Shown here piece by piece: positions 19,992 through 55,026 of a stretch of DNA of 63,318 nt (its first letter is position 1; each line of letters opens with the position of its first letter). Position numbers and translations under genes: made by a program. This DNA is from a virus, in IMG/VR virus record IMGVR_UViG_3300037993_001113, positions 1-63,318 of that record. One strand, given 5' to 3'. Under the pieces are notes generated by a model. That model saw only the letters and a list, made by a program, of their open reading frames with translations, made no database searches and was not told the DNA's origin.

Positions 19992-21455
19992 TCACTCCTT
20001 ATCTTTCCAACGTCGTAAAACCTCGCAATCGGCGCGGATGGGCACACGCCACAGGCGCTCGCCGGTGTCGCGGTCGTCCATCACATGCTCGAAGATACCG
20101 ACCATGCAGGCGCCCACCGCGTCGGCGTAGTCTTCGTCCACTTCAGCAACGATTTGATCGTGTATGCTCAACAATGCTTCACAGTGCAGTCCGGTACCGC
20201 GGAACGTGTCGAACGTGTCCTCGGTTTCCGCCATTACCAGCTTTGTCTGTTCCGCATTGCTGGCGGTAATCGCATGATTCTGCGCCTCGCGCAGTCCTTC
20301 GCTTACCTTATACGGCAGGCTGGAGCGCACCTGCGGGATGTAGCGGGGACGGCCCCACGGGTCCCATACGAATCCGTAGCGTCGAGCCCGGTAGTGTTCC
20401 TGAGCGAAGTACGCGGCAACCTCGGGGTGTTCCCGGTACCACTGCTGTATAAACCGGTCGCACCATTCCTCCGTAAGCCAGTCCGGCGGGGATATTCCCG
20501 CCGCCCAGTAGTCGCCAACCAGTTGCGACAGCAATCCCTTTTTGGTGACACCGTTCTGGATACCGAAGTTGGTCCGTTTGCTTGGCATCCGGTGCAGGTA
20601 CTTGTCCACTTTAGCCGGATCCTCAATGTGGAACGTCTGCATCGCGGTGTGCATGTGCGGATCGAAGAACGGGTCTTCATTGAACCGCGCGATCAGCACC
20701 GGGTCATTGGCTAAATGCACCATGTCGCGGAACTCCATGCCGGAGAAGTCAACCGACACAAGGCGCGTGCCTGGGGAGGCAACGAACGCCGCGCGGATGC
20801 GGGCGCCCAGCGAACTGCGGATAGGTATCTGCTGCAGGTTCGGCTTGCGGCTGCTGAGCCTTCCTGTGATCGCCCGTGTGGTGGTGAATGTCGTGTGCAA
20901 ACGGTTTGTAGACTCTACATGGGGAAGTTCGCACAGCGGGCAGCAGGGGCCTGCCGGGTGTAACCGTGCCATTGCGGGCAGGGCGTCGCAGAACGCACTG
21001 CGCAGTTTCGCGCGTTCCCGGTAAGCAATCACCAATGGCACCACCGGGTGCTGATCGCGTACCAGATCGAGGTTCTTCCGTCCGGTCGATACCTTGCCGC
21101 CGCCGGTAGACTTAAGCTTTGTATTGCGGCCAACGCCCAGCAGATCGAACAGCAGCTCGCGGATCTGTTCGGCGCTGGATGCGTTGATGCCGGCCGATCC
21201 TTCTTCTTCTTCAATTGCTGCGGCGGATGCGCTGAACCGGTCCAGAGCGAACGGCGGAATGTAGGACGCTATCTGCTTTTGCAGGTCCGCCATTTCGGCG
21301 GCGAACTGCACCGACAGTTCCTGCAGGTATGGCACGTCAACCGCGATCCCGACACGCGACATCCGGTTGAGCGTTGGCAGGATGGATAAGTCCAAACGCC
21401 GGACGTTTTCAAGATCCGGCTGTCCGGGCAGCGTTATGCCGTTATAGAGAGGCAC
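19992..21455 (-). CDS. Family A DNA polymerase, polymerase domain only
   Basis: 487 residues, shorter than a full Pol I because the 3'-5' exonuclease lies on a separate protein two genes upstream. Motif A is at 233-243 (SVDFSGMEFRD, catalytic D236). Motif B is at 293-304 (KRTNFGIQNGVT). Motif C is at 432-438 as HDQIVAE instead of the usual HDExxxE, leaving the catalytic Asp but replacing the Glu. TGRLSS at 197-202 is the standard template-contact motif. A CCPLC cluster at 171-175 could bind metal. A copy of the 13-bp palindrome lies inside the gene (20907-20919), encoding HVESTN. It is expected to replicate phage DNA with the clamp encoded at 39645-40349. Confidence 0.9.
   Translation of the reverse strand: MPLYNGITLPGQPDLENVRRLDLSILPTLNRMSRVGIAVDVPYLQELSVQFAAEMADLQKQIASYIPPFALDRFSASAAAIEEEEGSAGINASSAEQIRELLFDLLGVGRNTKLKSTGGGKVSTGRKNLDLVRDQHPVVPLVIAYRERAKLRSAFCDALPAMARLHPAGPCCPLCELPHVESTNRLHTTFTTTRAITGRLSSRKPNLQQIPIRSSLGARIRAAFVASPGTRLVSVDFSGMEFRDMVHLANDPVLIARFNEDPFFDPHMHTAMQTFHIEDPAKVDKYLHRMPSKRTNFGIQNGVTKKGLLSQLVGDYWAAGISPPDWLTEEWCDRFIQQWYREHPEVAAYFAQEHYRARRYGFVWDPWGRPRYIPQVRSSLPYKVSEGLREAQNHAITASNAEQTKLVMAETEDTFDTFRGTGLHCEALLSIHDQIVAEVDEDYADAVGACMVGIFEHVMDDRDTGERLWRVPIRADCEVLRRWKDKE
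20907..20919. promoter_or_regulatory. 13-bp palindrome, site 2 (inside polymerase gene)
   Basis: TGTAGACTCTACA, exact. It is embedded in the polymerase coding sequence, where it encodes part of HVESTNR just before the RLHTTF segment. Confidence 0.6.
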
Positions 21456-21458
21456 GGG

Positions 21459-21665
21459 TCAGTCTTCGTCGTCGCCTTCTTCGTCGTTGCCTTCCCGGTC
21501 GTCTTCATCCGGTTCGTCGTCTTCATCCGGCGCGTCGTCCGCTTCGATCATGCAGTCTTCGCTGCAATAGGGCTTGCCGGAATCGCCGATCCACGGATCG
21601 CCATCGAATTCCGCTTCGCATTCGGCGCAGGTTGTAATTTCGTTCTCGTCAGGCGTGGAACTCAT
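21459..21665 (-). CDS. Small zinc-ribbon protein with acidic tail
   Basis: 68 residues, ATG at 21665 after AAGGAGACAG. Residues 12-36 hold CAEC and CSEDC pairs (four-Cys ribbon), followed by a 25-residue Asp/Glu tail. It sits between the exonuclease and polymerase genes, overlapping the exonuclease 3' end by 17 bp. It may be an accessory that bridges the two halves of the split polymerase, or a DNA mimic; both ideas are inference from position and charge. Confidence 0.6.
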   Translation of the reverse strand: MSSTPDENEITTCAECEAEFDGDPWIGDSGKPYCSEDCMIEADDAPDEDDEPDEDDREGNDEEGDDED

Positions 21666-23076
21666 CTCTGTCTCCTTCGTGTATTCGGAACGCATCGCCG
21701 CGCCGGCGCGCCAGTTCAACCGCGACCCGCCCCGTCCAGTCCGCGTCGCCCACGGCGTAGTTTACAGCCTCTTCCATGGTGCAGTTGGCTATCCCCGGCA
21801 CGGGGTAGCCCCCGCATCTTGCCTCCACATGCGACACCATCCATTCGTTCAGCGGGTCCTGCCAGAACGCGTTCAGCCTGGGTTCGTCGTTGGCGCCCCA
21901 CGGGTTGTATTCGCCGTCAGGCGCGGTGTTGTCCAGCAGACGTTTGAGCAGCGACTCCAGATCGCTTTTACGTACCTCATCCGCCAGCGGTTTGCCGGTC
22001 TTCTTATGAAATCTGCTGCTGCGCCACTGCAGATCCAGCACCGCGACCCGATACGCTTCGAGCATCCAGTCCTGCAGGGCGCGGATCGACGCCGGCCATA
22101 CGGTTTCCTGATAACTGGTCATGGTGTGGCGGAACAACCGGTAGACCAGCGGCTTAAGGCCCTGCGGCAGGTTGCCAAGGTGGAATGCTTCCTGCATGGT
22201 GTCGCCTGAGGGCAGAATGTCGCATCCCAGCTTATGCAACACTTCCATATCGTAGGAGGCGTTGTGGAAGATCGTACGGTATAGAGACAGACCGGCAAAC
22301 AAATGACGCAGTGTGCGTTTGTCTACAGCTCGTATGAGAACACCCTGTCTGGGTTGCCATGACACCTGCACCGACCACGGATGGCCCGCATGGCTTTCCG
22401 TATCGATGGCCAGCACTGATGCGTTCTCCATCCCACGCAGACCTTCAGTATCCGTTATCAGTTTGTAGTCGACCGGTTCAGGCGCCGGGCCCCCGATGAA
22501 CGCTTCGTAACCTCTGCGGTGCATGTCCAAAGTGCCGCTCAGCCCCTGCCAGTCGTCCATACACACCTGCATCCAGCGGGACTCGTGCAGGCCGATAGCG
22601 GGATGGTACATTGGCACCAGCCAGCCTTCCCACCCGAACAGCGTGCCGACCTTGCCAGTGTGTTGTGGGATGCCGTGGTGAAGCTCCAGTCGGATACCCG
22701 GCACCAGACTGCAGGCGCTGCTGCCGCACAACACGATCACTTCCGGTTGCGTTCGCGCGATCTCTTCCGCTACGTGGTGCCGGGCGCACGCGGCAATGGT
22801 CTTGTCGTCCGGCGCTTTGTTGGCAGCGTGTCCGCATAACACGGTGTTGCAGACGCGGACCTGCGAGCGGTCGAGCCCGGCCAGCGGCAGGTAAAGCTCG
22901 TCCAGTTCCTGGCCGGTTTTCCCGCAAGCAACCCTGCCCTGCCGGTTCTCGTCCTGCCCCGGACGCTCCATGACGATCAGCACGGATGACGGTTGCGGTC
23001 CGTCCCCGCCTATCGCATGGAGCGATTCGTTGCCCGCGTTAGGGCAGTCCGGGCAGCGCTGGCACCAGGCAGGCAT
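21649..23076 (-). CDS. Uracil-DNA glycosylase (family 4/5-like) fused to DEDDy 3'-5' exonuclease
   Basis: 475 residues. N-terminal glycosylase: Cys 5, 8 and 11, then Cys 51 and 76, likely iron-sulfur ligands. ERPGQDENRQGRVACGKTG (37-55) matches the GExPGxxEDxxGxPFVGxAG motif, and MYHPA at 156-160 matches the HPS(Y/A) motif. C-terminal exonuclease: IDTE at 224-227 (motif I), HNASYD at 271-276 (motif II), YAVGDAD at about 440-446 (motif III, DEDDy). This supplies the proofreading domain missing from the polymerase at 19992-21455. Coupling glycosylase and proofreading suggests removal of uracil or quality control during replication. In the first Pro-Gly motif, E39-R-P-G replaces G-E-x-P-G. Confidence 0.82.
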   Translation of the reverse strand: MPAWCQRCPDCPNAGNESLHAIGGDGPQPSSVLIVMERPGQDENRQGRVACGKTGQELDELYLPLAGLDRSQVRVCNTVLCGHAANKAPDDKTIAACARHHVAEEIARTQPEVIVLCGSSACSLVPGIRLELHHGIPQHTGKVGTLFGWEGWLVPMYHPAIGLHESRWMQVCMDDWQGLSGTLDMHRRGYEAFIGGPAPEPVDYKLITDTEGLRGMENASVLAIDTESHAGHPWSVQVSWQPRQGVLIRAVDKRTLRHLFAGLSLYRTIFHNASYDMEVLHKLGCDILPSGDTMQEAFHLGNLPQGLKPLVYRLFRHTMTSYQETVWPASIRALQDWMLEAYRVAVLDLQWRSSRFHKKTGKPLADEVRKSDLESLLKRLLDNTAPDGEYNPWGANDEPRLNAFWQDPLNEWMVSHVEARCGGYPVPGIANCTMEEAVNYAVGDADWTGRVAVELARRRGDAFRIHEGDRDEFHA

Positions 23077-28565: not shown

Positions 28566-29182
28566 TCTCCGTACCCCGCTGCAACCGCCGCGTCCCGGTT
28601 GACTTCGATCATCGTTTGCATTTCCGCGAGCTCCTTTGCGCTGAACCCGACCAGATAGCGGGTGTACACCGGGTCCGGCCACTCCATCGCGCTCAGCACA
28701 TGCCAGCGCACGATGTCGCATCCGTACCCAAGGCAATAACCAGCGCCCTGGCACATCCACAGCCATTTGCGTTTGATAAGGTCGGCACCGGTGTACTTTT
28801 TAGCGCGATTGAATTTGAATTCTTCCACACACGGCAACCCGGCGTCCTTCAGCAGCGACAACCCGTCGCAGGTCATAATCACCGGGTCGTTCGCTTCGCC
28901 GGGCTGCCACAGAATCTCCCGATACAGGCTGACCGCAAACTCCTCCCAGGCATGGCCCATCAGCCAGCGCAGCGGGAATTCCTCTTCGGAGATCTGCTCC
29001 AGGTATGCAGTAATACGCGACTTCTCAGCGACGTACTTCAGCAACCCGGACAGGTGCAGGCCGGGCGTGCGCGGCGCGGGCATTATGTAACCGTCTGCAC
29101 CGACGGACCGGGGCAAAGGTACCCGGCGCAGAAGATCCATGCGGTCGAGCGTCACATCGGTTTCGCTGATGAGGGTTGGCAT
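28562..29182 (-). CDS. PD-(D/E)XK exonuclease (RecB/Cas4-like)
   Basis: 206 residues from the ATG at 29182. Translation upstream of this point enters a tandem repeat and is not the real start. GHAWEEFAVSLY near 76 is the conserved helix Glu motif. MTCDGLSLL near 104 and VEEFKFNRA near 119 give the D...ExK catalytic core. It is the probable 5'-3' exonuclease partner of the ATPase encoded immediately after it. It starts 5 bp after the stop of the SR-repeat ORF. Confidence 0.68.
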   Translation of the reverse strand: MPTLISETDVTLDRMDLLRRVPLPRSVGADGYIMPAPRTPGLHLSGLLKYVAEKSRITAYLEQISEEEFPLRWLMGHAWEEFAVSLYREILWQPGEANDPVIMTCDGLSLLKDAGLPCVEEFKFNRAKKYTGADLIKRKWLWMCQGAGYCLGYGCDIVRWHVLSAMEWPDPVYTRYLVGFSAKELAEMQTMIEVNRDAAVAAGYGE

Positions 29183-29187
29183 GGCGT

Positions 29188-29424
29188 TTACGACCCCGAC
29201 CGCGACCGCGACCACGGCCCTGACCGCGACCCCGACCGCGACCACGGCCCTGACCCTGACCGCGACCCTGACAGCGACCACGACCGCGACCCCGACCGCG
29301 ACCACGACCGCGACCCCGACCGCGACCCCGACCGCGACCACGACCGCGACCCCGACCGCGACCCTGACCGCGACCACGACCACGACGACCTCTCGTATCC
29401 GGCCCGCAACAGCGCCCCGTTCAT
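29188..29424 (-). CDS. Ser-Arg/Gly/Trp dipeptide-repeat protein
   Basis: 78 residues: a unique start MNGALLRAGYERS, then an uninterrupted (Ser-X) repeat with X = Arg, Gly or Trp (rarely Leu or Pro) to the end. Support for it being a gene: the ATG at 29424 lies 3 bp after the stop of 29428-29730 with AGGTAAGG upstream, and its TAA is 5 bp before the nuclease ATG, so it fills an operon gap exactly. Caution: a hexamer repeat leaves all frames open, and the plus strand could read Asp-Pro/Asp-Arg repeats. Such a tail would be disordered and basic, possibly nucleic-acid binding. Confidence 0.5.
   Translation of the reverse strand: MNGALLRAGYERSSWSWSRSGSRSGSRSWSRSGSRSGSRSWSRSGSRSWSLSGSRSGSGPWSRSGSRSGPWSRSRSGS
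29191..29388. repeat. Hexanucleotide tandem repeat (CGACCN), about 33 units
   Basis: An almost pure array of CGACCN where the sixth base is C, G or A, with a few CGGCCC, TGACCN and TGACAG variants. On the minus strand each unit is Ser plus an NGG codon (R, G, W), so the common variation changes only the second residue of each dipeptide. It is a slippage-prone microsatellite inside 29188-29424. Confidence 0.9.
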
Positions 29425-29427
29425 TTG

Positions 29428-29730
29428 TTACCTTACCTGCCGCGGGGCATGAACAATCTGCACCGCATCGATAATCGTTCCGCGGCCAATCGCTACCAGA
29501 CCATCCGGGAACGGTTCCACTTCATTAAGTTCAGACGGGTCGCGGAGGGCCTTGTGAAACCGCCCGGTGTCGGCAATCCACGCGGCATCCCGCAGGATAA
29601 CTTCATGATCGTCGATTGACACAAGTACGCCGGTGTCGATCATGGTGACAGTGCGAATCAGATAAGGTTTGCCGGGTTGCCAGAAACGTTCCGGTAACGG
29701 CTTTGACTTTGTGTTTTTGGTTTTTTCCAT
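29428..29730 (-). CDS. Hypothetical protein
   Basis: 100 residues, MEKTKNTKSKPLPERFWQPG at the start, with a GGAGT ribosome site. The core LIRTVTMIDTGVLVSIDDHEVILRDAAWIADTGRFHKAL is a compact alpha/beta region similar in style to small phage proteins of unknown function. It is first in a sub-block with the SR-repeat ORF and the nuclease, downstream of a perfect 16-bp palindrome. Confidence 0.55.
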   Translation of the reverse strand: MEKTKNTKSKPLPERFWQPGKPYLIRTVTMIDTGVLVSIDDHEVILRDAAWIADTGRFHKALRDPSELNEVEPFPDGLVAIGRGTIIDAVQIVHAPRQVR

Positions 29731-34797: not shown

Positions 34798-36078
34798 TTA
34801 CGCTTTGCCGCTTTGCCGCTTTGCCGCTTTCTTCGCAGGCTTCGCTGTTGTGTGCCGCGCCTGCGCTTCCTCCACCAGCACGGCAATCCGGTTCCAGTGC
34901 GCGATAACATCCTTGCCGGCTGCGTCGCCGCGCGTCCACGCGGTCTTCAGCACGGCGCAGAACGACCGCATGATATCCGGGTAAGCGGCTGAACACAGCG
35001 AGTCCAGCAGGCAGATAAGATCGGCAACGGTACGGGTGACCGCATGCGGACCTTTGCCGGTGTCGCGGTCGCGGGTGGCCTTAAGTTCACGGGCAGCTTC
35101 GGCGATCTGCGCGCGGGTGGGCACAACGGGCCGGTCAGGCGCTTCGGCCTCCGCGCGTCCGGTTTTTTCCTTTGCGCGTTCAGCCTTTTTCGTTGCGCGT
35201 TCAGCCTTTTCCTTTTCCCGCCGCGCCGCGCTTTCCCGGCGCAGCTGCGCCATCCACTCTTTCCGTTGCGCCGGGGTACGCTCCGCGGCAGGTACCGCCT
35301 GGGTAGTTTTGCCTGTCCCGGCCGGCTTACCGGATACTGTTTGCCGCGCATTAGCGCCCGCTGGCGTGTTCGCGCCAGGCTTCCCCGTGGTTTGGTCCGG
35401 GGACGGCTGCGCAACCGCTTCCCGCTCGGCTTTCTGCACAGCCAGTTCGACTACCGCGTCCGCCTGCGCCGGTTCGACGTGGGTGAGCGTGTAGAATGCG
35501 GCATCCGCGCCCATCCTGCCGTCCGCAACCAGTGCCAGCAGACTGTCGTACACGTCCTGCGCCATACCCTCCGGTTTGTGCAGCAGTTTGTCGCACTGGC
35601 TGACGGTTGCTCTGGACACCCCGCAGTACTGCGCGACCTCGCGGGTGCCGGTCCAGCCGTGGCGCTCGCGCACCGCCCGGAACAAATGCGCCATCTGGAC
35701 GGCGGTGTAACCCTGCCGGTCTAAGTTGGCGCGAACCGCCAGCCGCAGCGGGTCGCCGCCGGTTGCTCCGTCCACCACGCACTCCAGCGGAAACGGCGTG
35801 CCGTCGCCTTCGATCGTCAGCGCGGCAGTCAGCCTGCGCCGCCCGTCGAGCACCCGATGCTGCGGGTCTACGATCAGCGGGACAAGCTGACCTTCGCTCA
35901 GCAGCGAACGCTTAAGCGCTTCGAGCCGGCGGGCTTCGTTTGCGGCCGGCGGGCCGGGCCTTGCTTCCGCTGTTTCCGGCAGCAGGCCGATTTCGGACGG
36001 CGCGAGCATTATTGTCGCTCTTGGCGCGGGCAGCGGCGGGTATGTTTCCCCGCCTAGTACGTATTCGACTCTGGGCAT
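34798..36078 (-). CDS. ParB-like DNA-binding protein
   Basis: 426 residues; the ATG at 36078 follows AGGAGA. Residues about 46-86 form the ParB/Spo0J N-domain (LLSEGQLVPLIVDP..HRVLDGRRRLTAAL, containing the G-x-RR-x-x-A motif). Residues about 118-160 are a helix-turn-helix (TREVAQYCGVSRATVSQCDKLL). A long Lys/Glu/Ala coiled-coil linker (about 255-335) and a helical C-terminal domain follow, ending in AAKRQSGKA repeats. No ParA partner was found, so partition, plasmid-like maintenance or regulation are all possible. A parS-like palindrome at 40985-41004 is a candidate target. Its 5' end overlaps the HTH gene by 167 bp. Confidence 0.75.
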   Translation of the reverse strand: MPRVEYVLGGETYPPLPAPRATIMLAPSEIGLLPETAEARPGPPAANEARRLEALKRSLLSEGQLVPLIVDPQHRVLDGRRRLTAALTIEGDGTPFPLECVVDGATGGDPLRLAVRANLDRQGYTAVQMAHLFRAVRERHGWTGTREVAQYCGVSRATVSQCDKLLHKPEGMAQDVYDSLLALVADGRMGADAAFYTLTHVEPAQADAVVELAVQKAEREAVAQPSPDQTTGKPGANTPAGANARQTVSGKPAGTGKTTQAVPAAERTPAQRKEWMAQLRRESAARREKEKAERATKKAERAKEKTGRAEAEAPDRPVVPTRAQIAEAARELKATRDRDTGKGPHAVTRTVADLICLLDSLCSAAYPDIMRSFCAVLKTAWTRGDAAGKDVIAHWNRIAVLVEEAQARHTTAKPAKKAAKRQSGKA

Positions 36079-36382
36079 CGGGGGTTTCTCCTGGCAGTTC
36101 GGACGGCGTTGTTCCCGCCGGTTTGTGCAATGCCGCCACCTGCGCAAGGTCCCAGCCGAGGTAGGCGGCCAGCCGTTCGGCAAACCGCATCGACGGCCGG
36201 GCCGCGCCGTGCAGCACCCGCGACAGGTAATCGGGCACTACCTGCAGCGATTCGGCCATGGCGGCGATGTTGTAGGGACGCCACGGTCCCTTGGGGGGTT
36301 GTCCGGTGCGCGACGGCGCGCGGCGCGGCACCAGCGGGGATACCGGAGGGAGCGCGGCGGCGGAATGTACGCGTTTGCTCAT
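35912..36382 (-). CDS. XRE-type helix-turn-helix regulator
   Basis: 156 residues from the ATG at 36382 (MSKRVHSAAALPP). Residues about 37-80 (YNIAAMAESLQVVPDYLSRVLHGAARPSMRFAERLAAYLG) form a Cro/C1-type HTH. The C-terminal 70 residues are Arg/Ala-rich and probably disordered; they are encoded in the region that overlaps the start of the ParB-like gene in another frame. It is the first gene after the leftward promoter and 30-bp leader element, as expected of a phage regulator. Confidence 0.6.
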   Translation of the reverse strand: MSKRVHSAAALPPVSPLVPRRAPSRTGQPPKGPWRPYNIAAMAESLQVVPDYLSRVLHGAARPSMRFAERLAAYLGWDLAQVAALHKPAGTTPSELPGETPDAQSRIRTRRGNIPAAARAKSDNNARAVRNRPAAGNSGSKARPAGRKRSPPARSA

Positions 36383-36418
36383 ACACGTTCGGTCCCCGGC
36401 GGCGCGTGCGAACCATTG

Positions 36419-36448
36419 CTGCCTCTGCCCTGCTGTGCTTCCGGGAGC
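36419..36448 (-). promoter_or_regulatory. 30-bp leader element, leftward copy
   Basis: On the minus strand this begins GCTCCCGGAAGCACAG and ends GGGCAGAGGCAG. All 30 bases are identical to 54740-54769 on the plus strand. It starts 68 bp from the first base of the -35 box at 36515 and so falls about 30 nt into the transcript, before the first leftward gene. Confidence 0.75.
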
Positions 36449-36486
36449 AACGGCCCGCATGACAACGCCTGCCGGGTACGCTACGA

Positions 36487-36515
36487 ATCATTACATAACC
36501 GTACCGGTAAGTCAA
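36487..36515 (-). promoter_or_regulatory. Leftward promoter for HTH/ParB operon
   Basis: On the minus strand the -35 is TTGACT (36515-36510). The -10 is TAATGA at 16 bp spacing (36493-36488), or AATGAT at 17 bp. It lies upstream of the 30-bp element and the HTH gene. Confidence 0.6.
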
Positions 36516-36598: not shown

Positions 36599-36751
36599 GG
36601 GAGAGAAATATAAATTTTATCCAAATGTCGCAACCCTAAGAAGAAGAATGCGCGCGCGCGGGCGCGCCGGGCGCGGTAAGAGAATCTGTATAGCTTTCCT
36701 TTTTCTTATCTTAGGGATGCGACATATGGATAAATAATTTTTTTCTCTCCC
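36599..36751. repeat. Long inverted repeat with GC-only core in divergent intergenic region
   Basis: Arms 36599-36646 and 36704-36751 are reverse complements at roughly 40 of 48 positions, the inner part (ATGTCGCA.CCCTAAGA) being best conserved. Between them lie about 57 bp, including a run of alternating CG (cgcgcgcgcgggcgcgcc). The stretch lies between the leftward HTH/ParB promoter and the rightward gene at 36777, a typical place for an origin, operator cluster or cruciform. Confidence 0.75.
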
Positions 36752-37942: not shown

Positions 37943-38336
37943 CGGGCTTCGCTGTCCATACCGCATACTGATCTTTAGTAAGCTGTACATTAGCAACCAT
38001 ATAGCGGGAGTCCTTTACGTCTGCGGTGTACGAGCAGTGCGAGCAGCCCGAGCAGCGCGAGCAGCGCGAGCAGACCGAGCAGTCCGAGCAGCGCGAGCAG
38101 TCCGAGCAGAGCGAGCAGTCCGAGCAGCCCGAGCAGTCCGAGCAGAGCGAGCAGCCCGAGCAGTCCGAGCAGTCCGAGCAGCCCGAGCAGTGCGAGCAGC
38201 CCGAGCAGTGCGAGCAGAGCAAGCAGTCCGAGCAGCCCAAGCAGCCCGAGCAGTCCGAGCAGTCCGAGCAGGATAGATCTGCTTTAACCGCTACTTCCCG
38301 TTTTGTTGCCGCTGTCATAATTTCGTCGATTGTCAT
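37935..38336 (-). CDS. Cys-Ser-X tripeptide-repeat protein
   Basis: 133 residues: N-terminus MTIDEIMTAATKREVAVKADLS, then about 27 C-S-X units with X = Asp, Gly, Arg, His, Leu or Val, then a unique C-terminus (YTADVKDSRYMVANVQLTKDQYAVW). ATG at 38336 after AAGGA. A Cys every third residue, about 29 in all, implies dense metal binding or disulfide cross-linking if folded. It lies between the two halves of the tyrosine recombinase. Confidence 0.65.
   Translation of the reverse strand: MTIDEIMTAATKREVAVKADLSCSDCSDCSGCLGCSDCLLCSHCSGCSHCSGCSDCSDCSGCSLCSDCSGCSDCSLCSDCSRCSDCSVCSRCSRCSGCSHCSYTADVKDSRYMVANVQLTKDQYAVWTAKPDA
38032..38274. repeat. 9-bp tandem repeat GAGCAGNNC, about 27 units
   Basis: Units differ almost only at bases 7 and 8 (TC, CC, TG, CG, AG, AC); two units start AAG. 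On the minus strand the invariant part is TGC TCG (Cys-Ser) and the variable pair falls in the third codon, so coding variation is confined to one residue per unit. Confidence 0.92.
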
Positions 38337-38357
38337 TGGTTTATGTCCTTAATTTCA

Positions 38358-38419
38358 TTCATCCATTCGGTTAGTATTTCCGCCGTCCAGACGGGCACTG
38401 CGATTGTGCGCGTGCGGCC
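38358..38419. repeat. 62-bp direct repeat, copy A
   Basis: Identical to 39029-39090 (offset 671 bp). Copy B encodes the C-terminal end of the integrase N-half. Copy A sits after, and is fused to, the truncated gene 38371-38568. It marks a tandem duplication or a deletion-prone segment carrying 38420-39028. Confidence 0.9.
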
Positions 38420-38581: not shown

Positions 38582-39016
38582 TTATCCGTTGATTTCGTAA
38601 TGTATGCTGATCGACGTAGTTAGCAGACACAGCACCAGTGCGGTTGTGCCATCCGGCGGATAGGATGACAGGATCATGTTGCCTTTGTGCTCTCCGCACA
38701 CCGAAACACACCAGGTACCTGCAAAAAACGATGCAGTGCCTTTAATATCATGCGATGTGACACCGGTGTGCTTGTCCGCGTGTGGCGTAGCGATCTCGAA
38801 CGGTTCTGCCAGTTCCGGTATCTCGTGGTGCCTGAACCATAAATACAAACTGCGGATCGCACCGCGTTTTACATTAGGTTCGAGCATTACCTCCATACGT
38901 CCCCAGCGTTCGTGCTTCAACTGCGGAATGGGTATACGGTAGTCCCATCCGTACTTTTGGTCCTGATATTGTGCCGCATCGCGGAACACCACAGGCTTAT
39001 CGGCTTTCTTTGTCAT
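38582..39016 (-). CDS. Hypothetical protein
   Basis: 144 residues, MTKKADKPVVFRDAAQYQDQ at the start, ATG overlapping the stop of the integrase N-half (ATGA). It appears soluble alpha/beta, with a hydrophobic stretch TTALVLCLLTTSISI near the end. No domain is recognised. It is one of the genes lying between the two integrase halves. Confidence 0.55.
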   Translation of the reverse strand: MTKKADKPVVFRDAAQYQDQKYGWDYRIPIPQLKHERWGRMEVMLEPNVKRGAIRSLYLWFRHHEIPELAEPFEIATPHADKHTGVTSHDIKGTASFFAGTWCVSVCGEHKGNMILSSYPPDGTTALVLCLLTTSISIHYEING

Positions 39017-39648
39017 CTTTCAAGCTCCTTCATCCATTCGGTTAGTATTTCCGCCGTCCAGACGGGCACTGCGATTGTGCGCGTGCGGCCGCCCTTGCCG
39101 GTCAGATTGGCTATCAGCATACGGCCGCTGCGGGTGACAATGTGATCGGTGGTAAGCGCGCAAGCCTCGCTCCTGCGCAGGCCGCAACCCACCAGCAACG
39201 CCAGCACCGCGCGGTCGCGTTTGCCCTGTAAAGTGCTGCCATCCGGCGCCGTCAGCAGCGCGTAAGCCTGCTCCGCATTGAGCCAGCAACCCGTTTTTGT
39301 GCCGCGCACGGGCCTGGCGCGGATACGCTCTATTTGTGCTGCGGTTGTTTGTGCGATCCACCCGAGGTCGGCGGCTTCGCCTGCCAGCCGTTTGAGCGCC
39401 GCCAGCGCCTGGTTCAGCGTTGCAGCGCCTTTACCCTGCGCGGCGAGCGACCGTAAATGCCGTTGCACGGTTTCGCGGTCGAGCGTTGCATTGCCGGCGC
39501 GCATGTAACCGGCGATCTGTGCCTTGTAACTGCGCTGCGTGGACGGCGACAGGCCGGTCAGCGCTGCGGCGATACAGCGGGCCGGAAGATCGGTGGCCGC
39601 AGGCGTGGCGGTCACGGTTGTCACGGCATTCGCAGTCGCGGTTGTCAT
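39013..39648 (-). CDS. Tyrosine recombinase, N-terminal half with Arg I and Lys
   Basis: 211 residues from the ATG at 39648 (overlaps the clamp stop). Residues 25-105 form the SAM-like core-binding domain. GCGLRRSEACAL (154-165) contains the box I arginine, and TGKGGRTRTIAVP (183-195) the catalytic beta-hairpin Lys. It stops after TEWMKELER, exactly at the interdomain loop before the H-x-x-R/H/Y part that is found at 37658-37942. Alone it could bind DNA but not cleave it. Confidence 0.82.
   Translation of the reverse strand: MTTATANAVTTVTATPAATDLPARCIAAALTGLSPSTQRSYKAQIAGYMRAGNATLDRETVQRHLRSLAAQGKGAATLNQALAALKRLAGEAADLGWIAQTTAAQIERIRARPVRGTKTGCWLNAEQAYALLTAPDGSTLQGKRDRAVLALLVGCGLRRSEACALTTDHIVTRSGRMLIANLTGKGGRTRTIAVPVWTAEILTEWMKELER
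39029..39090. repeat. 62-bp direct repeat, copy B
   Basis: Perfect partner of 38358-38419. It encodes the last residues of the integrase N-half (from RTRTIAVPVW to TEWM). Confidence 0.9.
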
Positions 39649-40349
39649 TGGCTTTTCTGCGGTAACCGCGCCTTCCAGAAACCGTTGCATACGTCTGTAC
39701 TGCAACCCATGAGCGCTACGGTTACATCCTGTCCGTCTTCCGTTTCGGCTTTGAACATGGCCGGTCTGTACGCAATGCTGTCGCTGCCTGCGCGTTTCGG
39801 CGTTTCAAAGTACACGGTCACCTCGCGTACGGGTTTGTTCGTACCGGCATCGGTCACCTTTTTGAGCAGTGCGCATACCTCGTACAATTGTTCGACCGCG
39901 AAGCTGCAGGCGAACGCGGCATTGCGCGGGTCGGATATTACGCGATCGATGTCCGGGAAGCGGTTGCCGGTTTCGTTCGCTTCCGCGCATTTGACAACAG
40001 TGCTGTTAGTACCATCGCTTACGGCAAGCGCGAACCCGTCCGGCGACTGCGTAACGGCGGCGCACGCAAGCACGGGGATAGTGTTTTTGGCGGGTATCGC
40101 CCCGGCCAGCATTTTTGCGTCGCCGGCGGGCAGCAGCAGGTGCGGAAATATGTCGGTCGCGGTTGCTTCGCCGTTACCGGGCACCGGGAACGATTCGGCT
40201 TTCAGCTCGGGCACGGCTGCAATCCGCGCGAGCTTTATACCATCGGTCGCCGCGGTGTACTCCGGGGCGATCAGTATGTTGGAAAGCCTAAAGCTGTTTT
40301 GCTCCGTTGAGCAGAACGCGGCTACCGCGAGGTTGTGTTTATTCAGCAT
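39645..40349 (-). CDS. DNA polymerase sliding clamp (beta-clamp-like)
   Basis: 234 residues; the ATG at 40349 follows AGGAAAGGAA. LNKHNLAVAAFCSTEQNSFRL...EYTAATDGIKLARI (about 2-43) matches the clamp pattern '..FxSKExxRYxLxGV...TDGhRLA'. FPDIDRVI near 137 matches the F/YPDxxRVIP motif, and VTVALMGCS near the end matches the VLMPM element. It is shorter than host DnaN (about 370), as in several phages. It is likely the processivity factor for the split family A polymerase, an unusual partner since such polymerases often use none or thioredoxin. Confidence 0.7.
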   Translation of the reverse strand: MLNKHNLAVAAFCSTEQNSFRLSNILIAPEYTAATDGIKLARIAAVPELKAESFPVPGNGEATATDIFPHLLLPAGDAKMLAGAIPAKNTIPVLACAAVTQSPDGFALAVSDGTNSTVVKCAEANETGNRFPDIDRVISDPRNAAFACSFAVEQLYEVCALLKKVTDAGTNKPVREVTVYFETPKRAGSDSIAYRPAMFKAETEDGQDVTVALMGCSTDVCNGFWKARLPQKSQ

Positions 40350-54259: not shown

Positions 54260-54679
54260 ATGAAGAACAAAAGGAGTAAAGGTGAGCTGGATCGATTTCG
54301 CGTGAATCGGATTGAGCTGAAACGTAAGTATCTCTGGTTGGAAGTCATTGTCTTCAGTAGACCGGGTTACATGGCGCGTGGGTCTTACCACCTGGGTATA
54401 AATGCGCGTAACACAATGGGATTATGGCGTCCTGTATTTCCCAAGGATGTACGTATCAATCGTGGTCGTATTGGTACTATGCGACTGGTGCGTGGACGTA
54501 ATTTGGAACTTATTGCAATGCACGAGTCGGTGCATGCCGCGTTTGGTCTTTCGGCGTATCGAAAGAGATGGCCTGTTGACGGAGATGATCGTGAGGAGTT
54601 TATTGCGCGTGTTGCCGAGTACATTTTCGGCCAGATCCAGCGTCGCCTGCGCGTCATGAATTATTATCGTTACACTTGA
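54260..54679 (+). CDS. HExxH metallopeptidase-like protein
   Basis: 139 residues. IAMHESVHAAFG (86-97) is a zincin HExxH (H88, E89, H92), and REEFIARVAEYIFGQ about 25 residues later supplies a candidate third-ligand Glu. A basic beta-rich N-terminus precedes it. Its DNA is visibly AT-richer, with more TTG/CGT/TAT codons than its neighbours, suggesting recent acquisition. Position between portal and capsid operons suggests prohead or host-protein processing, or a moron; unproven. Confidence 0.62.
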   Translation: MKNKRSKGELDRFRVNRIELKRKYLWLEVIVFSRPGYMARGSYHLGINARNTMGLWRPVFPKDVRINRGRIGTMRLVRGRNLELIAMHESVHAAFGLSAYRKRWPVDGDDREEFIARVAEYIFGQIQRRLRVMNYYRYT

Positions 54680-54704
54680 CATCCGTTGTAATACAGCTTA
54701 CAGT
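54676..54704 (+). promoter_or_regulatory. Rightward promoter of the capsid operon
   Basis: -35 TTGACA (54676-54681), 17-bp spacer, -10 TACAGT (54699-54704). The spacer and -10 overlap the 16-bp motif TGTAATACAGCTTACA (54687-54702), also at 41024-41039. It overlaps the end of the metallopeptidase gene. Confidence 0.65.
54687..54702. promoter_or_regulatory. 16-bp motif TGTAATACAGCTTACA, copy 2
   Basis: Same 16 bases as 41024-41039. It overlaps the promoter core, so a bound protein would block or modulate transcription of the capsid operon. Confidence 0.5.
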
Positions 54705-54739
54705 CATTGCTGAAGGGCGTTCGTCGCGGCACGACCGGC

Positions 54740-54769
54740 GCTCCCGGAAGCACAGCAGGGCAGAGGCAG
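54740..54769 (+). promoter_or_regulatory. 30-bp leader element, rightward copy
   Basis: Identical over 30 of 30 bases to the reverse complement of 36419-36448. It starts 65 bp after the start of TTGACA (68 bp in the leftward copy) and lies upstream of a strong terminator. Proposed antitermination or attenuation site. Confidence 0.75.
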
Positions 54770-54808
54770 TAACGCAGTACGGTTCGGTTCCTTTCTCCCG
54801 GTTGACAG

Positions 54809-54868
54809 CTGAAGGCAGACCGATACGGTGTTGTCATCCACCGTACCGGGCTGCCTTCGGCGTTTTTT
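54809..54868 (+). terminator. Strong intrinsic terminator in the capsid-operon leader
   Basis: Nested hairpin: GAAGGCAG (54811-54818) pairs with CTGCCTTC (54851-54858), and within it ACGGTG pairs with CACCGT around an 8-nt loop, followed by TTTTTT at 54863-54868. It is between the promoter at 54676 and all capsid genes, so read-through must be provided for their expression from this promoter. Confidence 0.8.
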
Positions 54869-54957
54869 GGGGTGCCTTTCTTACTGCCGTGGCGTACCGC
54901 TCTCCTCCGTGAGTAACGATAGCCGGATATACCGGCGGTCGTGGAAAGGAGTATGCC

Positions 54958-55026
54958 ATGGAACTTTTTGGCGTGCAGGAGACTGCAAACCGCCGACGGG
55001 GCAAGCACCGCAGCAAAAAGCGTTAA
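54958..55026 (+). CDS. 22-residue basic mini-ORF
   Basis: MELFGVQETANRRRGKHRSK then KR and stop, preceded by GGAAAGGAG at good spacing. It is the first translatable ORF after the leader terminator. Highly basic second half. It may be a leader peptide or a tiny DNA/RNA-binding protein; too short for family assignment. Confidence 0.4.
   Translation: MELFGVQETANRRRGKHRSKKR

Follow-up and report, generated by a model that had tools for sequence, protein, structure and literature searches.

Late transcription in phage lambda is controlled at a promoter and terminator, PR'-tR', with the antiterminator Q and its qut site, and we know of no second copy of qut on the leftward operon of lambda. The putL site of phage HK022 is laid out as a leader of about 70 nt with hairpins (PMC9378689). 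The virus record analysed here over its whole length (63,318 bp with a 132-bp end repeat, henceforth the window) contains a 30-bp element in exactly two copies, identical at 30/30 positions and on opposite strands, one (L) in the leader of a leftward operon that begins with HTH and ParB-like genes and the other (R) in the leader of the capsid operon (Table 1). No further site with three or fewer mismatches was found in the window (shuffles give 0.00).

The R arrangement resembles lambda PR'-tR'/Q in that a constitutive-type promoter is closely followed by a strong terminator ahead of the structural genes (24/25 R regions) and in that the leader varies between lineages while the layout stays, and it has the architecture by which promoter-terminator late control is defined; it differs in the conservation of a leader hairpin within the close group, and in the second, partial copy that one lineage has on its leftward operon. 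The Q-family domains PF06530 and PF03589 were absent from 10 genomes in searches that detected their controls, the silence of PF06323 carries no weight, its control being silent too, and a scan of the window proteins against PHROGs gave no antiterminator. With HK022 putL and putR, whose RNAs give terminator read-through by way of the beta' zinc-binding domain and without a further factor, the locus shares copies on leftward and rightward transcripts just behind the promoters and hairpins in a leader of ~70 nt, but instead of two stem-loops with the same fold in both copies R forms one hairpin (hairpin I) and L another, and the leftward copy is found in one genome only; local alignment of eight leaders with putL and putR was no better than with shuffles. 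As with nutL and nutR of the lambda N system, identical short sites lie on opposite operons, one of them (L) on a hairpin, but R is at a late rather than an early promoter. No boxA/boxB layout was noticed by eye at the element and no N-like gene was identified; an arginine-rich micro-ORF exists here, but behind the terminator. The locus may work like the PR'-tR'/Q or put systems, but it is not assigned to either as a member.

Table 1. Features of the two element copies and their operons (window coordinates).
Feature	Position	Strand	Description
Leftward promoter-like site P_L	36487..36515	-	TTGACT-17-AATGAT, TG before -10
Outer stem enclosing L hairpin	36394..36476	-	CCCGGCAGGCG / GCGCCGCCGGGG
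L hairpin	36407..36459	-	Arms 36459-36446 and 36420-36407; 14 contiguous pairs including three G-U; element apical
L element copy	36419..36448	-	
HTH_31 protein gene	35912..36382	-	First of leftward block; PF13560, E 2.5e-6
ParB-like gene ORF	34798..36183	-	Second of leftward block; phrog_2159, E 5.8e-7; true start inside ORF
Late promoter P_R	54676..54704	+	TTGACA-17-TACAGT, promoter-like hexamers
R leader hairpin I	54715..54743	+	Conserved in close relatives
R element copy	54740..54769	+	3' side of hairpin I, conserved CCCGGAAGC and 18 lineage-specific nt
Intrinsic terminator	54808..54868	+	21-24 bp stem, about -38 kcal/mol, then six T
Second conserved leader block	54911..54951	+	GAGTAACGATAG-hairpin-GGTCGTGGAAAGGAG
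Arg/Lys-rich micro-ORF	54958..55026	+	22 codons; head of capsid operon

Including that of the window, 25 R regions were tabulated, from relatives identified by their portal protein (67-76% identity) or by their major capsid protein (identity down to 65%). A TTGAC-N17/18-type promoter precedes the capsid operon at the same place in all 25, followed in 24 by a leader and then an intrinsic terminator (stem 16-26 bp, -26 to -43 kcal/mol; distance from the -10 to its start 35-100 nt). In the window it is the strongest terminator on either strand, and the best of 100 dinucleotide shuffles for the R terminator reached -34.9 kcal/mol. Any promoter match of 9/12 within 500 nt past the terminator occurs in only two of the 24 regions, and with downstream promoters almost absent P_R seems to be what the capsid genes rely on. 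The exceptional region without a terminator (L007) is also without the CCCGGAAGC leader. The simplest reading of R, by analogy with lambda PR'-tR', would be conditional late expression by antitermination.

The R leader of the window's sub-clade contains a hairpin and CCCGGAAGC, both of which the element overlaps. In the eleven closest leaders the hairpin starts ~5 nt into the transcript (GGGCGUUC...GAACGUCCC) and is followed by CCGGAAGC or a variant and usually by a second, unrelated hairpin. With hairpin I in its proposed register 89% of cells pair, versus 41-57% with the register slid; covariation in the aligned stems appears weak, with few paired changes. The 18 nt after CCCGGAAGC are conserved in no relative, and more distant relatives keep the promoter and terminator with different leaders. 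A covariance model of the R leader (R1) found exactly one strong site, always R, in each of seven genomes, and since these genomes are among the sequences from which the model was built, the informative part is that L was not recovered. No Rfam family matched at its gathering score in the window or in six related loci, the matches at R being weak ones to microRNA models below the cut-off.

Further downstream, directly before the first ORF of the capsid operon, the second conserved block (GAGTACCGATAG-variable hairpin-GGTCGGAGAAAGGAG) recurs at the same place in related R regions, is present even in the terminator-less L007 and has no Rfam match. In the window, L006, L007, L018, L069, L073 and others, the first ORF of the capsid operon is a conserved micro-ORF rich in Arg and Lys (~13-30 codons), and in some genomes a second micro-ORF follows the first (e.g. 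MAKKRRGMRRMKKR in L018).

An earlier note, made from the letters of this DNA, had described the element as duplicated behind two promoters, and this is borne out by the identity of the copies and by promoter-like hexamers at both: P_L and P_R are sigma70-like, each reading towards its own copy. The end of the -10 is separated from the element by 38 nt at L and 35 nt at R (67 and 64 nt from the start of the -35, in agreement with the 68 and 65 bp that the note had given). The intervening sequences were rightly called unrelated, as the two promoter-element spacers are not significantly alike (345/5000 random genome windows and 655/5000 shuffles align equally well); an extra likeness upstream of the element, GGCGTT, was dropped as chance after alignment against random windows and shuffles. 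As evidence that position in the transcript matters, the near-equal distance had been given too much weight, coincidence being only mildly unlikely: in leaders of ~100 nt, the positions of two elements would agree to within 3 nt by chance in an estimated 7% or so of cases. The likeness of L and R reaches 38 nt at 92% (36416-36453 at L). An assembly artefact at L was set aside, the flanks being the expected neighbours (the HTH gene and a divergent gap with an inverted repeat) and not a join to the R flank. No evidence was found of inversion of the segment between the inverted copies, and a near-identical contig (G001) has the same orientation at R.

On the leftward strand, the HTH gene is taken to start at 36382, which matches its relatives; an in-frame ATG at 36460 would place the element inside the coding region. 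The predicted fold of the 100-nt L leader is a rod (-49.1 kcal/mol, z -2.4), and its 14-pair stem was reached by only 2/20,000 flank shuffles (p about 1e-4). The three G-U pairs of this stem exist only in the leftward RNA, which favours, as far as the modelled fold goes, a structure acting on that RNA strand. The R equivalent of the stem has only three contiguous pairs; as L is without hairpin I and R without the 14-bp stem, the two RNAs share sequence and not fold.

Among the 15 genomes searched for a second copy of their own R leader, only the window has one (score 63 versus 28 for the reversed-sequence control); weak second copies in the other genomes (23-30) were rejected as no better than their controls (23-32). 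A looser search gave HTH-gene orthologues in eight relatives, and in most of the relatives inspected a promoter of the TTGAC type reaches almost to the ATG, leaving no room for an element; the leader ahead of the HTH gene is ~100 nt longer in the window than in relatives. In G005 (33838), G006 (31604), G007 (19228) and G002 (54263) the -10 of the HTH-gene promoter is just a few nt upstream of the start codon, and such spacing suggests that the messengers of relatives' HTH genes may be leaderless or nearly so. Since the other genomes searched have no second copy and the HTH genes of relatives no leader, L was most likely added in this lineage. Viral contigs scanned for the exact pattern yielded only near-identical phages with R; the longer of their contigs does not include L, and the shorter covers 6.5 kb around R. 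No close relatives of the window HTH and ParB proteins were found in viral contigs, and no prophage relatives in the genome collection.

The reading that we tentatively favour, while placing it somewhat short of an even chance, is that L is a lineage-specific second target of the regulator acting at the late leader R. Transcripts from the constitutive-type P_R would pass through a structured leader into the strong terminator, and the capsid genes would stay off until RNA polymerase is let past. The element would be part of the R-leader site recognised by the regulator of this lineage, probably in nascent RNA, and the regulator would there allow read-through of the terminator into the capsid operon. 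Copied into the 5' leader of the HTH/ParB/replication operon, the element would be displayed on a stable RNA hairpin, and the same regulator would also act on the leftward transcript, through elongation, translation or RNA stability. We infer the binding of the regulator, the antitermination at R and the action at L alike; antitermination at R is a reasonable inference from the architecture, favoured by the terminators in 24/25 R regions, by the few downstream promoters and by L007, which lacks terminator and CCCGGAAGC leader alike. A shared regulator is favoured by the overlap of the element with the CCCGGAAGC conserved in the R leaders of relatives, the 30/30 identity, the near-equal distance behind both promoters and the L hairpin with its strand-specific G-U pairs. 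Against it stand the second copy in 1/15 genomes, the different RNA contexts of L and R, the failure of L with the R1 model, the absence of a recognised antiterminator gene and the weak covariation in hairpin I.

Two rivals are each credible, though we consider both unlikely. L may be a neutral or nearly neutral copy of a ~38-bp piece of the late leader in a non-coding gap, its similar distance being coincidental. Insertion is probable, as relatives are without a leader at this place. The copy is found in the window only among the 15 genomes, and the shared stretch includes the 18 nt conserved nowhere else, so that L and R may be identical simply because the copying was recent. Such phages have little non-coding DNA, however; all three mismatches of the 38-nt match fall outside the 30-nt core, and the L-side letters at these positions complete the 14-bp stem around it. 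Alternatively, the element may act as duplex DNA, an operator bound by a phage protein (e.g. the HTH protein) that blocks or activates both promoters from +30, as might fit the exact 30-bp identity despite unrelated RNA context, the imperfect palindrome GCTCCCGGAAGC in the element and the HTH protein encoded by the first gene of the L operon; yet eight relatives have HTH genes and none of them a second copy of its own R leader, the G-U pairs of the L stem would be mismatches in DNA, and the conserved features of R (hairpin, terminator) are RNA-like.

The earlier note had suggested that the element could control a leftward block of about 17 kb to 19606, over which processive antitermination would be of use. 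The extent of this block is confirmed, the ORFs running from 36382 to 19606 and encoding, after the HTH and ParB-like proteins, a helicase, a Sak4-like annealing protein, a DNA methyltransferase and a DNA polymerase; both copies do lie in promoter-proximal leaders, and antitermination is a sensible proposal at R. The leftward part of the proposal is possible but not supported: to be processive over 17 kb, antitermination must have terminators to act on. None was found after L, and a scan of the leftward 36.4-19.6 kb for intrinsic terminators gave one candidate, an imperfect -20.5 kcal/mol hairpin at 31000-30936, which does not appear convincing; L is moreover without hairpin I and relatives are without an L copy. 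A pair like putL/putR or nutL/nutR, in which both nascent leaders make RNA polymerase terminator-resistant and L serves the 17-kb block, is thus improbable even with the element 35-38 nt after the -10 of opposed early and late transcripts and with an R leader (~70-100 nt, hairpin I, often a second hairpin, then the terminator) that resembles the HK022 putL layout (PMC9378689), for besides these objections its likeness to putL or putR is no better than that of shuffles, and an antiterminator sufficient by itself would leave the terminator right after P_R without a purpose, unless that terminator serves to filter out unmodified polymerase.

Several other features of the window were observed. A long imperfect inverted repeat (about 36606-36737) lies in the divergent gap upstream of the HTH gene; the layout recurs with different sequences in G002, G005 and G007, with GTGGACT repeats between the arms in G002, and is possibly an origin or partition site. 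The DNA polymerase is split into adjacent ORFs (19992-21455 and 21649-23076) matching consecutive parts of phrog_17. A 65-bp direct repeat, 98% identical (38355-38419 and 39026-39090), flanks a 144-aa ORF that is next to an integrase-like gene (39013-39705), and repeat arrays of 9 bp (CGAGCAGTC) and 12 bp (GACCGCGACCAC) lie inside ORFs at 37977-38298 and 29155-29430, respectively.

Among annotated phages, a related capsid protein was found only in Tunturi_1 and Tunturi_2 (26% identity; shared gene order; ~63 kb), which are cultured phages of Tunturiibacter (PMC11924767). No such promoter-terminator was recognised in them at the corresponding place. On the strength of these relatives, an Acidobacteriota host is no more than our guess for the phage of the window.

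Combining a shared regulator with antitermination at R, a doubtful but possible whole is that, in a group of uncultivated phages whose distant cultured relatives infect Acidobacteriota, the capsid operon is under conditional antitermination through its leader RNA and an antiterminator of a type not recognised here, and that one lineage has exported the element to its leftward HTH/ParB/replication operon, putting both operons on one factor. If so, the ~25 promoter-leader-terminator cassettes at R would be a ready collection in which to look for a new system of phage antitermination, beyond the hosts studied most; at L, nature would have carried out the experiment of reusing the recognised sequence on a second operon, and the part recognised would be narrowed down to about 30 nt. 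Should L be inert, the conserved late layout would still hint at how this group of phages times the expression of its capsid genes.
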